Positions 24,784-33,083 of a stretch of 47,634 nucleotides of DNA are shown here, piece by piece. The stretch's first letter is position 1. The number at the start of each line of letters is the position of its first letter. The position numbers and the translations under genes are program-made. Source of the stretch: Gammaproteobacteria bacterium. GTDB lineage: Bacteria > Pseudomonadota > Gammaproteobacteria > BMS3Bbin11. The notes beneath the pieces are model-generated. The model was not told where the DNA came from, ran no database searches, and worked only from the letters and a program-made list of their open reading frames with translations. The stretch covers positions 1 to 47,634 of the forward strand of contig JAADJE010000023.1 in NCBI GenBank assembly GCA_013150915.1, given 5' to 3'.

Positions 24784-25578
24784 ATGACACAGGAAAGTAT
24801 CCAGAAGGAAATGCCCTTCGCAATGGTGCGCGGTGAAATTGTGACTGAACTACCGAAAGATCTTTATATCCCCCCTGAAGCGATGGAGGTCTTTCTGGAT
24901 ACTTTTGAAGGACCGCTGGACTTATTGCTGTATCTAATTCGCAAGCAGAACCTGGATATTCTGGATATTCCTGTTGCTGAAATTACCCGCCAGTATATGG
25001 GCTATATTGACCTTATGCAGATGATGAACCTGGATCTTGCCTCCGAGTATATGGTCATGGCAGCCATGCTGGCCGAGATAAAATCCCGCATGTTATTACC
25101 CCGCCTGGAACCTGAAGCTGAGGATGAGGAAGACCCTCGTGCTTTACTGGTTTGTCGGCTACAGGAATATGAGCGTTATCGGCAGGCGGCACTGGACATT
25201 GAAAAGTTACCGCGGGTGGGGCGGGATATCTATCTGTCAAATCCTGTGCGAGACCATATAAAAATGAAGAGGAATGACCCACATGTTGAGATTCATGATT
25301 TACTGATGGCATTTTCACAAGTAATGAAACGGGTTGATGAGATGAAAAGTTTTAATATCAATCGTGAGATCCTGTCGATCAGGGAGCGTATGAGTATAGT
25401 TCTTGATCAGGTCAATAACAGGGACTTCATTGCTTTCGAGTCTTTATTCGAAAAGGAGGAAGGAAAAATGGGCATGGTGGTTACCTTCATGGCTATTCTC
25501 GAACTATTGAAAGAGAACCTGATACTGATCATTCAGAATGAACAGTTTGCATCGATCCATGTGAAAGCGGTGGCGTAG
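24784..25578 (+). CDS. scpA: Segregation and condensation protein A
   Basis: Kleisin subunit that bridges the SMC dimer heads in chromosome condensation. The 264-residue product contains the family's N-terminal block VFLDTFEGPLDLLLYLIRKQNLDI with PVAEITRQYMGYI and SEYMVMAAMLAEIKSRMLLP. The C-terminal winged-helix part is at about 200-264. ATG 24784, with GGAG about 8 nt upstream, is the start; an in-frame upstream start (24640) lies inside trpS and adds non-family residues. No smc gene is in the window. Confidence 0.95.
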   Translation: MTQESIQKEMPFAMVRGEIVTELPKDLYIPPEAMEVFLDTFEGPLDLLLYLIRKQNLDILDIPVAEITRQYMGYIDLMQMMNLDLASEYMVMAAMLAEIKSRMLLPRLEPEAEDEEDPRALLVCRLQEYERYRQAALDIEKLPRVGRDIYLSNPVRDHIKMKRNDPHVEIHDLLMAFSQVMKRVDEMKSFNINREILSIRERMSIVLDQVNNRDFIAFESLFEKEEGKMGMVVTFMAILELLKENLILIIQNEQFASIHVKAVA

Positions 25579-26363
25579 TGGTGAATACCAATATTGATAT
25601 GAGCAGACATAACGAATCGAGGTTTAGCTCGGATCAACCAGATGAACTGAAGAATATTATCGAAGCGGCAATCATGGTCAGTGAGGAACCGATTACTGTT
25701 GAGCGCATACTTGGAATGTTTACCGATGCAACAAAACCGGAACGTGCAACAGTAAAAGAACTATTGCTTGAGTTAGAGCAGGATTATGCAAAGCGTGGTT
25801 TTGAACTCAGGTGTATCGATAAGGCTTATCGACTACAGACCCGTGAAGAATACTCTCCCTGGCTGGCCCGTTTAAGTGTCGGCAGACCACAGCGCTACTC
25901 GCGTGCCATGCTCGAAACCCTGGCCATCATCGCCTACAGGCAACCGGTTACACGTGGTGAAATCGAGGAAATACGGGGTGTTGCTGTCAGTACCGACATT
26001 ATACGAACCCTACAGGAAAGGGAGTGGATACGTCAGCTTGGAGTCCGCGATGTACCGGGGAAACCTGCCCTGTTTGGGACCACAAAAGGCTTTCTTGAAT
26101 ACTTTAGTCTTGAGGGGCTGGCTCAGTTGCCAACGCTACAGGATATTCGTGATATGGATACTATCGCTGCCGAACTTAACATGAACTTGCCGCTTGAGGA
26201 TAAGGCAATAGATAGACCCGATGACGAAAATGATAATGACGATGAAAGCACGGCTGAAAACGATACGGAGACTAATCCACAAGCCGACAGGCCGGAAAAT
26301 ACGCAGGCGACTGACAGCAATACAGAAAAGCCCGGGTTGAAGTCAAGGCTTCATGAAACCTGA
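25578..26363 (+). CDS. scpB: Segregation and condensation protein B
   Basis: Partner of ScpA, a dimeric double winged-helix protein of the SMC complex. The 261-residue product has the first winged helix (ELKNIIEAAIMVSEEPITVERIL), then RYSRAMLETLAIIAYRQPVTRGEIEEIRGV and DVPGKPALFGTTKGFLEYFSL, which are diagnostic. The last about 65 residues are an acidic, low-complexity tail (Asp/Glu/Asn-rich) typical of proteobacterial ScpB. The GTG start overlaps the scpA stop by one base; an alternative ATG is at 25599. The end overlaps rluB by 11 bp. Confidence 0.95.
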   Translation: MVNTNIDMSRHNESRFSSDQPDELKNIIEAAIMVSEEPITVERILGMFTDATKPERATVKELLLELEQDYAKRGFELRCIDKAYRLQTREEYSPWLARLSVGRPQRYSRAMLETLAIIAYRQPVTRGEIEEIRGVAVSTDIIRTLQEREWIRQLGVRDVPGKPALFGTTKGFLEYFSLEGLAQLPTLQDIRDMDTIAAELNMNLPLEDKAIDRPDDENDNDDESTAENDTETNPQADRPENTQATDSNTEKPGLKSRLHET

Positions 26364-30258: not shown

Positions 30259-31887
30259 ATGGCCAGAGTTAATCTCCCGATCCTTAAAATTACGACGGTC
30301 ATGCTTGCAATGGTTGTGGTGCTCCCATTACTGGTCGTGTTCTCCGGCTGGATGCAGAGTGAGAATCTGGTCTGGGAACATCTATTACGGACGGTTCTGG
30401 GTGATCTACTGAAAAACACGGCGTGGCTATTATTGGGCGTCGGTATTGGTGTAACGATTCTTGGCGTGGGCCTGGCCTGGTTGACAACCCGCTGTGAATT
30501 TCCCTGTCGCCGGATTTTTGACTGGGCCTTGATGCTTCCATTAGCGGTACCCGCTTATGTCATGGCATTCGTGGCACTTGGTTTACTGGATTATACCGGG
30601 CCGGTACAAACCGGCTTACGTGAGACACTGGGCAGTAATAATTTCTGGTTTCCTGAAGTACGTTCTACGGGTGGCGTGATCACCGTAATGACTCTTGTGC
30701 TTTATCCTTATGTTTATATGTTGGCACGTTCATCATTTATAACTCAGGGAAACAGTACGGTAGAAGCCGCTCGTAGTCTCGGTCTGAGTGCCTGGGGCGC
30801 TTTTTTTCGTGTCAGTATCCCCACCGCGCGTCCGGCCATTGTTGCGGGCGTATCGCTGGCCTTAATGGAAGCACTGGCAGACTTTGGTGCCGTCGCTATC
30901 TTTAACTATGACACATTTACCACTGCAATTTATAAGGCCTGGTTCGGCCTGTTTAACCTTCAGGCGGCATCACAGCTGGCCTCTTTTCTGTTGATACTTG
31001 CGGTTATAGCATTAACAGCAGAAAGGCAGTTGCGCGGAAAGGCGAAATATCATGAGGCGACGCGCAGCACAAATGTATACCGTTATCATCTGGCTGGCTG
31101 GCATCGTTGGGGCGCGCTGTTCATTGTAAGCCTGATATCTCTGCTGGCATTTATTGTACCGATTATACAGTTGAGTATATGGGCGTGGGGAGTCCTGTCT
31201 GAAGATATGGATGGACGCTATATCGGCCTATTGCTGCATACACTGATGCTTGGTGGAATGGCGGCCGGTTTAACGGTTATCAGTGCCATGGTATTGGCCT
31301 TTACCCGCCGCACACACAGTGACTTTCTGGTACGGGGTTCAGTTAACATTGCAACACTAGGGTATGCGCTGCCCGGATCGGTGTTGGCGGTTGGCGTCAT
31401 GCTGACTTTCACCAGCATAGATAATGTACTGACAACCATGGCCACATTGATTGGCTGGCAGTCACCGGGGCAGATACTAACCGGCAGCGTTTTCGCCCTG
31501 GTAATGGCCTATATGGTGCGTTTCCTGGCCGTTGCCTACGGGCCGATAGAAAGTGGCCTGTGTCGCATACGTGTCGGTATTGCTGAAGCGGCACGTGGTC
31601 TGGGTGATAGCCCACTTTTCACCCTGTGGCGTGTCTATCTTCCCTTGTTACGCCCGGGCTTGTTCACGGCCGGCTTGCTGGTACTTGTTGATGTAATGAA
31701 AGAAATGCCCGCGACCATGTTGCTACGCCCCTTTGGCTGGGACACACTGGCGGTACGGATTTATGAGATGACGTCAGAAGGCGAATGGGAACGCGCGGCC
31801 TTACCCGCGATCACCTTGATACTCGTTGGTCTCATTCCTGTTATTGTACTGGTCAGGCGTTCGGCAATATACCAGGGCAGGAACTAG
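30259..31887 (+). CDS. Fe(III)-type ABC transporter permease (fused two-domain)
   Basis: A 542-residue inner-membrane permease of the FbpB/SfuB type, in which two permease modules are fused in one chain. Each half has an EAA loop: VEAARSLGLSAWGAFFRVSIPTARPAI at about 168-194 and IAEAARGLGDSPLFTLWRVYLPLLRPG in the second half. About 12 hydrophobic helices are visible. ATG 30259 starts 100 bp after the binding-protein gene; no strong ribosome-binding site is evident. The stop codon overlaps the left arm of a palindromic element that separates it from the ATPase gene. Confidence 0.92.
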   Translation: MARVNLPILKITTVMLAMVVVLPLLVVFSGWMQSENLVWEHLLRTVLGDLLKNTAWLLLGVGIGVTILGVGLAWLTTRCEFPCRRIFDWALMLPLAVPAYVMAFVALGLLDYTGPVQTGLRETLGSNNFWFPEVRSTGGVITVMTLVLYPYVYMLARSSFITQGNSTVEAARSLGLSAWGAFFRVSIPTARPAIVAGVSLALMEALADFGAVAIFNYDTFTTAIYKAWFGLFNLQAASQLASFLLILAVIALTAERQLRGKAKYHEATRSTNVYRYHLAGWHRWGALFIVSLISLLAFIVPIIQLSIWAWGVLSEDMDGRYIGLLLHTLMLGGMAAGLTVISAMVLAFTRRTHSDFLVRGSVNIATLGYALPGSVLAVGVMLTFTSIDNVLTTMATLIGWQSPGQILTGSVFALVMAYMVRFLAVAYGPIESGLCRIRVGIAEAARGLGDSPLFTLWRVYLPLLRPGLFTAGLLVLVDVMKEMPATMLLRPFGWDTLAVRIYEMTSEGEWERAALPAITLILVGLIPVIVLVRRSAIYQGRN

Positions 31888-32035
31888 TGCCCCTTCAAGG
31901 TGATAATTCGGGGGGTCAGCGTTCATGGCTGCGTTGCACCTCTTGCAACGGACTGTGGCCATTCGCTGCGAGGTGCGCCTTACCGTGAATGCTGACAGAC
32001 CAACTGAACCCTGAATTATCACCCTGAAGGAGCAC
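31887..32035 (+). repeat. Intra-operon palindromic element F that includes the ATPase RBS
   Basis: Outer arms of 27 nt (31887-31913 and 32009-32035) pair at 25 positions in RNA. Next inward, 31915-31928 and 31983-31996 pair fully if G-U is allowed. A small GTTGCA/TGCAAC hairpin lies near 31933-31949. The right outer arm contains GAAGGAG, the ribosome-binding site of the ATPase gene (spacer 7 nt to ATG 32040), and the left arm begins on the last base of the permease stop codon. Confidence 0.85.
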
Positions 32036-32039
32036 CAGC

Positions 32040-33083
32040 ATGTCAGAAATACTGGAAATTAAATCGATACGGTGTGGTTATGAAGGGACCATTGTCGTCA
32101 ATGATTTCACCTTAAGCCTTGCTGATACCACACAGAGTTGCTTACTGGGACCCAGCGGTTGTGGCAAAACAACGGTACTTCGGGCCATTGCGGGATTCGA
32201 GCGGATTACCCGCGGTGAAATCATTCTCAATGGCAGGGTAATTTCATCAAAAGATACCCAGATTCCCCCTGAACATAGGGGCATCGGAATGGTCTTTCAG
32301 GACTATGCTTTATTTCCCCATCTGAGCGTGGCAGATAATGTGGCTTTCGGTCTGCGTAAACAGGGAAAGATGAAGCAGCGAAAAGTGGCCGAGGAGATGC
32401 TGGAGCTGGTGGGTCTGGAAGACCACGCGGGACACTATCCACATGAATTATCCGGTGGTCAACAGCAACGTGTCGCTGTGGCACGCGCATTGGCACCAAA
32501 ACCGCCCTTGCTGTTGATGGATGAGCCTTTCTCGAATCTTGATAGTGATTTGCGTGAACGGCTACTGCTGGATATACATGAGATATTACGTCAGCGGCAG
32601 ACGACTACCTTATTTGTCACCCACGATCAGGAAGAGGCTTTTATTATTGGTGATCATATTGCGGTGATGAATGATGGTTATATTAAACAATGGGATACAC
32701 CGTATAACCTCTATCATGAGCCAACAAACAGGTTTGTAGCCGACTTTATCGGACAGGGGCGCCTGATCGGAGGTGTCCTTGCCAGCCATGAGTCGGTGCA
32801 GACCTCATTAGGCTTACTGGCAGGAAACCGCTCCTATGAATGGCCGCCCGAAACACGAGTCGATGTTTTATTGCGCCCGGACGATGTCCTGCTTGGTGTT
32901 GATGAAGGTGTGGAGTGTCTGATTACTGACCGACATTTTAAAGGTGCTCAGATTATGTACACCCTGCGTACTCCGGGTGGTGATGAATTACTATCACTGG
33001 TACCCAGTCACTTTGATATCGATATCGGACAGAAGGTAAAAGCGGCGGTGGATGCAGAGCATCTGGTTATTTTTAGGCAGTAG
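32040..33083 (+). CDS. Fe(III)-type ABC transporter ATPase
   Basis: A 347-residue nucleotide-binding subunit of the FbpC/PotA kind that powers the importer. Walker A is GPSGCGKTT (37-45), the Q-loop is in VFQDYALFPH, the signature is LSGGQQQRVAVARAL, Walker B is LLLMDEPFSNLD and the switch His is in VTHDQEEAF. The C-terminal about 110 residues form an OB-like regulatory domain (DVLLRPDDVLL, HFKGAQIMYTL) as in FbpC. Its ribosome-binding site AAGGAG is part of a long palindrome, so its translation may depend on RNA structure or on ribosomes leaving the permease gene. Confidence 0.94.
   Translation: MSEILEIKSIRCGYEGTIVVNDFTLSLADTTQSCLLGPSGCGKTTVLRAIAGFERITRGEIILNGRVISSKDTQIPPEHRGIGMVFQDYALFPHLSVADNVAFGLRKQGKMKQRKVAEEMLELVGLEDHAGHYPHELSGGQQQRVAVARALAPKPPLLLMDEPFSNLDSDLRERLLLDIHEILRQRQTTTLFVTHDQEEAFIIGDHIAVMNDGYIKQWDTPYNLYHEPTNRFVADFIGQGRLIGGVLASHESVQTSLGLLAGNRSYEWPPETRVDVLLRPDDVLLGVDEGVECLITDRHFKGAQIMYTLRTPGGDELLSLVPSHFDIDIGQKVKAAVDAEHLVIFRQ

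Follow-up and report, generated by a model that had tools for sequence, protein, structure and literature searches.

A small IS630/Tc1-type inverted-repeat element at a permease-ATPase stop/start junction, and its probable contribution of a stop codon and a ribosome-binding site

Elements of the IS630-Tc1-mariner group are known to duplicate a TA dinucleotide, as described for ISY100 (PMC2170065), and a preference for CTAG was reported for IS630 (Tenzen and Ohtsubo 1991, as cited in PMC2170065). RUP, a small non-coding MITE of the IS630-Spn1 type with inverted ends and a TA target, for which an IS630-type transposase has been proposed (PMC2229807, PMC3049150), is intergenic, is often located near IS elements, and carries no structure or function signature beyond its ends (PMC2229807). 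The pneumococcal BOX element supplies the stop codon of the upstream gene in 36 cases (PMC3049150), while ERIC, YPAL and Correia/NEMIS are small hairpin-forming mobile sequences that are co-transcribed with host genes, some of them affecting expression (PMC2229807). With respect to translation, coupling by RNA unfolding involves a Shine-Dalgarno (SD) sequence which is hidden in a structure and opened by the upstream ribosome (reviewed in PMC12548453), and a stable structure placed directly after a stop codon can insulate genes as a ribosome termination structure (PMC7518266).

In the current work, a palindrome located between an ABC permease gene and an ATPase gene was analyzed within a 47,634-nt stretch of gammaproteobacterial DNA (contig JAADJE010000023.1, hereafter "the window"). 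The element family to which it is assigned resembles IS630 and ISY100 in its TA duplication and CTAG preference, yet the window copy is without a transposase, and a matching end was found only on a 3' relic in another genome. It is similar to RUP in being small and non-coding, with inverted ends and a TA target; its sequence and host are different, its relatives being gammaproteobacterial and its full unit a double hairpin of ~266 nt as opposed to the 107-bp RUP (PMC3049150), and no stop codon or SD role is reported for RUP in PMC2229807. Like BOX, it can supply an upstream stop codon, but BOX is modular and is not known from PMC3049150 to supply a downstream SD. The ends of ERIC, YPAL and Correia/NEMIS are unrelated, and the effects of these sequences concern mRNA cleavage or co-translation rather than a stop codon/SD junction. 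As in coupling by RNA unfolding, the SD is predicted to be sequestered in a fold that the ribosome terminating upstream could reach, although here this structure would be built from two transposon ends and would bridge ~150 nt. No precedent for a MITE that supplies an SD was found in the open-access literature; subscription journals may hold one.

The palindrome as a copy of a MITE family

The earlier note on this DNA had described 25 of 27 outer positions as paired, a second inner stem, GAAGGAG within the right arm, and a left arm beginning on the permease stop codon. Recomputation gave the same pairing (24 Watson-Crick pairs and one G-U), the inner hairpin was recovered in the RNA fold, and the coordinates of both landmarks agree (Table 1), the first base of the left arm being the G of the permease TAG. 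A mechanical repeat finder delimited arms of 30 nt (31884-31913/32009-32038; 87% complementary). The fold of 31870-32060 reached -89.2 kcal/mol (z -6.9), whereas 200 dinucleotide-shuffled sequences averaged -58.2 +/- 4.5 and none of them matched the native energy; Rfam covariance models run against the window gave zero matches at gathering scores.

Table 1 Features of the window relevant to the element (positions in the 47,634-nt stretch)
Feature	Position	Strand	Basis
ABC transporter permease; closest to PhnU2 (TIGR03262) but scoring far under the curated cut-off	30259-31887	+	
Putative pre-insertion SD, AGGA in the permease tail; joined flanks GGCAGGAAC-(TA)-GCATG, -7.3 kcal/mol	31879-31882	+	inference, joined flanks
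Left target TA copy; with the element's first G forms the permease stop TAG (31885-31887)	31885-31886	+	sequence; TA duplication at uninterrupted sites of relatives
MITE copy of 149 nt, flanking dinucleotides excluded; internally deleted form of a ~266-nt two-hairpin element	31887-32035	.	comparison with other copies
Left terminal inverted repeat	31887-31913	+	repeat finder, arm pairing
Inner hairpin, corresponding to "hairpin 2" of the full element, with covariation of its paired columns among copies	31914-32000	+	fold, covariation
Weak promoter-like site within the element, CTGACA-16-AATTAT, 9/12	31992-32019	+	consensus match only; 0.4 expected by chance
Right terminal inverted repeat	32009-32035	+	repeat finder, arm pairing
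Probable ATPase SD GAAGGAG, from the element end	32026-32032	+	sequence; anti-SD duplex -8.0 kcal/mol
CA in the expected place of the second duplicated TA; one base changed	32036-32037	+	comparison with other copies
ABC transporter ATPase, ATG at 32040; closest to PhnT2 (TIGR03265), scoring under the curated cut-off	32040-33083	+	
scpA-scpB junction without element, GCGGTGGCG-TA-GTGG; TAG stop overlaps GTG start; that very TA is occupied by the element in G001 and G005	25567-25589	+	

Used as a query, the window sequence matched only itself in its own genome (G000) and up to 15 places in relatives within the genus. A single-copy structure, suggested at first by this self-match, was overturned with a full-length query from another genome: a pattern scan of public genomes revealed the core in MAGs labelled Gammaproteobacteria and Chromatiales, and the complete 266-nt element of one such MAG, employed for the family search, matched in 10 of the 13 gammaproteobacterial genomes searched, including four further places in G000 (C32, C80, C114 and C85). 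The occurrence elsewhere in the genome, which the earlier note had proposed to look for, was thereby established, and its reading of a repeat residing inside an operon holds, the repeat being a mobile-element copy. Such places, devoid of coding capacity, amount to five in G000 and more than ten in G001. Plasmid records returned no match.

The full element carries two hairpins between its ends, only the second of which is retained in the window copy, and the latter is 83-86% identical to G001 and G005 copies over its right part. The same terminal inverted repeats recur in other copies, for example as outward-facing end pairs TTGAAGGAGCAC-TA in G001 with a spacing of 43 or about 268 nt. Copies are bordered by TA, mostly as C-TA ... 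TA-G, the window copy having TA on its left and CA on its right. Compensatory changes in the inner hairpin were observed among 35 copies, inside and outside operons alike, and this covariation is therefore a property of the element. Taken together, the sequence comparisons identify the palindrome as one copy of a previously undescribed MITE of the IS630/Tc1 type, whose terminal inverted repeats form the arms.

A possible link to a transposase comes from G012, where the 3' relic of an IS630-family transposase gene (NF033545, 52 residues matched at E 5e-9, which is under the curated cut-off) is followed by CCATCAATACTAAGTTGTTAGACCAC-TA-G, a 28-nt terminus shared with MITEs of G012; the relic thus appears to tie the family to an IS630 transposase. 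An intact IS630-family partner with the window's own end type (GTGCTCCTTCAACC) was not found in the genomes examined, and the sole DDE_3 transposase gene of the window genome (L076) was ruled out as it possesses other ends.

Several further observations concern related or additional repeats. G013 (HyVt-540 MAG) contains dozens of matches to the element, many at contig ends, so that the family fragments this assembly, where recent activity is probable. A second double-hairpin family with ends GGAACCTCTGATYAATTATGCCATG (L030-L038 in G001, L025 in G005) shares a GCAAAGGAC..GGCCATTCGCTGCGA core with the window element, and a small unit, CGCCTAAAGCGCCTACTGTTGGTGCG, recurs within hairpin 2 of several copies (L141, L143, L080, L086, L087) as if a smaller element had inserted or spread. 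Loci L121, L158, L164 and L165 display the end type CACATGGATAGAGCAC-TA, which in some copies includes an ATG that reads in frame into the next gene and would add MDRAL to its protein. Within the window, perfectly complementary 34-nt arms separated by 164 nt (16250-16283/16448-16481; ATCAGTTTTCAGTGTTCGG...), composed of a motif resembling TTTTCAGT, probably belong to another small mobile element, and further long imperfect inverted repeats are located at 10155-10190/10393-10428 (36 nt) and 4354-4390/4422-4458 (37 nt).

Insertion sites and their position at stop/start junctions

For eight filled sites, the flanks were joined, used to search the relatives and then aligned across the junctions, all genomes being draft assemblies with genes called by open reading frames. 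Filled and uninterrupted sites differed by the element plus exactly one TA at pilB-pilC (uninterrupted in G003), lepA-lepB (G001, G000 and G006), the glycosyltransferase-like gene on C9 of G001 (versus G000 and G006), scpA-scpB (the window) and fdx-iscX (G000). For instance, pilB-pilC reads ...GTGACAAATAAC-TA-GTGGCTACA... in G003, where the TAG stop of pilB overlaps the GTG start of pilC, and ...GTGACAAACAAC-TA-[GTGTTC...GGAGCAC]-TA-GTGGCTAAA... in G001. The urtD-urtE alignment has this 2-nt gap as well, reading TA in G003 and TG in G000, and C32 of G000 holds an ispA-dxs site without element, the counterpart of a G001 insertion. These alignments support the view that the target is a single TA, usually in CTAG, which is duplicated on insertion. 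An exact uninterrupted counterpart of the window permease-ATPase junction was not found in the relatives. Their element-free permease-ATPase junctions, with 5 (G003), 12 (G005) and 6 nt (G007) from stop to start, are nevertheless compatible with insertion, as is the ispA-dxs site. As the atpF-atpH spacer is ~28 nt in both G002 and G003, the pre-insertion state of that junction can only be inferred.

In the genus, the element was encountered in the transporter operon of the window, in atpF-atpH, pilB-pilC and tatB-tatC (these three in G000 and G001), and in ispA-dxs (G001), scpA-scpB (G001, G005), urtD-urtE (G001), lepA-lepB (G004) and fdx-iscX (G001), the junction genes being named by reading their translations and the window genes by TIGR matches. 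In every named pair the TA adjoining the element belongs to the upstream TAG stop, and in most of them the downstream start follows 1 to 5 nt past the TA (about 11 nt for iscX). Under strict automated calling with both ends intact, both junction features were present at 7 of 14 distinct genus sites, as compared to 2 of 66 CTAG sites in 389 kb of sampled G000/G001 sequence, sites inside genes being excluded (Fisher p 3e-5), and to none of the 24 copies that five other genomes contributed (p 3e-4). These statistics were computed without L119, which was rejected as a gene-pair junction because it lies between the divergent bamD and rluD genes and its 95-codon "stop" is spurious. Because junction enrichment is absent from the genomes whose copies are near-identical, survival of insertions at junctions appears likelier than targeting.

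The three insertions common to G000 and G001 (atpF-atpH, pilB-pilC and tatB-tatC) have eroded differently in their interiors, with lengths in G000 versus G001 of 108 versus 43 nt for atpF-atpH and 145 versus 268 nt for pilB-pilC, while the stop-side and start-side termini were kept. The G001 atpF-atpH and fdx-iscX copies are 43-nt remnants that have lost the hairpins and conserve only the ends. At scpA-scpB, the G001 (L125) and G005 (L136) elements occupy the same junction in opposite orientation, reflecting either an inversion or two independent insertions.

Ribosome-binding site supply and the possible role of the stem

The only evident SD of the ATPase gene lies in the element, 7 nt before the start codon, and the element end very likely acts as the ATPase ribosome-binding site. 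Its anti-SD duplex (-8.0 kcal/mol) compares with -7.3 kcal/mol for the AGGA that the permease tail presents in the joined flanks, indicating that a site of similar strength was replaced. Comparable replacements are seen at urtE, lepB and the C9 gene; their flanks, once joined, bear strong sites (-9.5 to -10.7). At junctions the start-side end, GAAGGAG-CAC-TA, places the SD 5-8 nt ahead of the downstream start. About half of the junction copies harbor strong element-borne sites (-7.7 to -8.4) and others have weak ends (GAAAGAG -2.4, GGATAGAG -3.1); SD supply is therefore not universal. Among strong-type junction copies, 10 of 10 start-side ends but 2 of 8 stop-side ends keep GGAG (p 0.0015). 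The counts were made by eye and are not independent of shared ancestry, which together with orientation may account for part of the contrast; the retention is suggestive of selection.

The reading that best accommodates these data, and which is held with good confidence, is that an IS630/Tc1-type MITE inserted into the TA of a C-TA-G permease/ATPase stop/start junction, so that its ends now constitute the stop codon and the ribosome-binding site. The first base of the element completes the permease stop, and the ATPase would now be translated from the GAAGGAG of the element in place of the older site in the permease tail. Transposon insertions within operons are normally expected to be polar; this one may have been retained because neither gene becomes unreadable with these ends in place, while their loss would harm the downstream gene.

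Whether the stem also regulates is a separate matter. Transposons need matching ends, and arm pairing, which is present in copies inside and outside operons, is therefore by itself no evidence of regulation. In the window, CCCCUUC of the left arm (31890-31896) pairs with the SD except for one C-A mismatch, and because this arm begins within the stop codon itself, termination would place a ribosome over ~15 nt including this sequence. With the foot of the stem covered in this way, SD openness is modelled to increase from 0.12 to 0.57, and an increase is predicted at most other junctions as well. From this geometry it is plausible that the stem would block ATPase translation until opened by the permease-terminating ribosome. 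The paired ends would bring stop and start together, and that they and the terminating ribosome let translational coupling survive the 152-nt gap is a possibility we regard as tentative.

The alternative with the strongest claim, assessed as falling a little short of an even chance, is that the element inserted by chance at a tolerable place and is carried along neutrally, its SD being incidental, its stem being without regulatory effect, and the enrichment at junctions reflecting loss of insertions elsewhere. This would agree with the arm pairing of copies inside and outside operons, with the weak SDs at some junctions, and with the absence from junctions of the near-identical, presumably younger copies of the five other genomes, which fits survival over targeting. 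It accounts poorly for the three shared insertions, where retention of the ends while the interiors eroded suggests some importance of the ends, whether or not the stem has any.

An outward promoter in the element, combined with the SD, could generate a separate ATPase RNA that lacks the left arm and would never be sequestered; a promoter placed after the left arm is also what the earlier note had named as counting against its own reading. The promoter-like site of the window lies just upstream of the SD, G001 copies carry TTGACA-16-CATTAT at the same place (by eye), and in 8 of the 12 copies with an orientation it is the promoter side that points toward the downstream gene; the window site is nevertheless a single weak match where 0.4 would be expected by chance, the orientation bias at junctions is not significant (p 0.39), and the inner repeat is constrained for other reasons, rendering this alternative improbable. 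The hairpin could also act mainly on the mRNA, through RNase III/RNase E processing or as a barrier stabilizing the upstream permease message, as would suit the strong fold, the co-varying inner hairpin, and the transcript cleavage that ERIC and Correia elements can trigger (PMC3049150, PMC2229807). The hairpin is conserved outside operons too, however, and is missing from the 43-nt remnants of G001, so that a low probability is assigned to such a role. That the stable intergenic stem-loop terminates or attenuates transcription is scarcely credible, no terminator-like site having been detected and a T-run being absent after the stem.

Implications for the operons of the genus

Extending the preferred reading of stop codon and SD supply, the MITE ends could represent a translationally silent landing module, in which TA plus G provides the stop, the left arm masks the SD and the right arm carries that SD at the correct spacing, leaving both proteins intact and still coupled, whereby the element would spread through operons of essential genes and become indispensable; this more ambitious proposal is considered unlikely. 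The before and after sites present a mobile element between co-translated genes, with ends that apparently serve as stop codon and ribosome-binding site, and several of the host gene pairs are probably essential (ATP synthase, Tat, pilus, chromosome segregation). The family offers a natural, testable case of a selfish element turning into a required translation signal, and would also test whether translational coupling can bridge a hairpin of ~150-270 nt.
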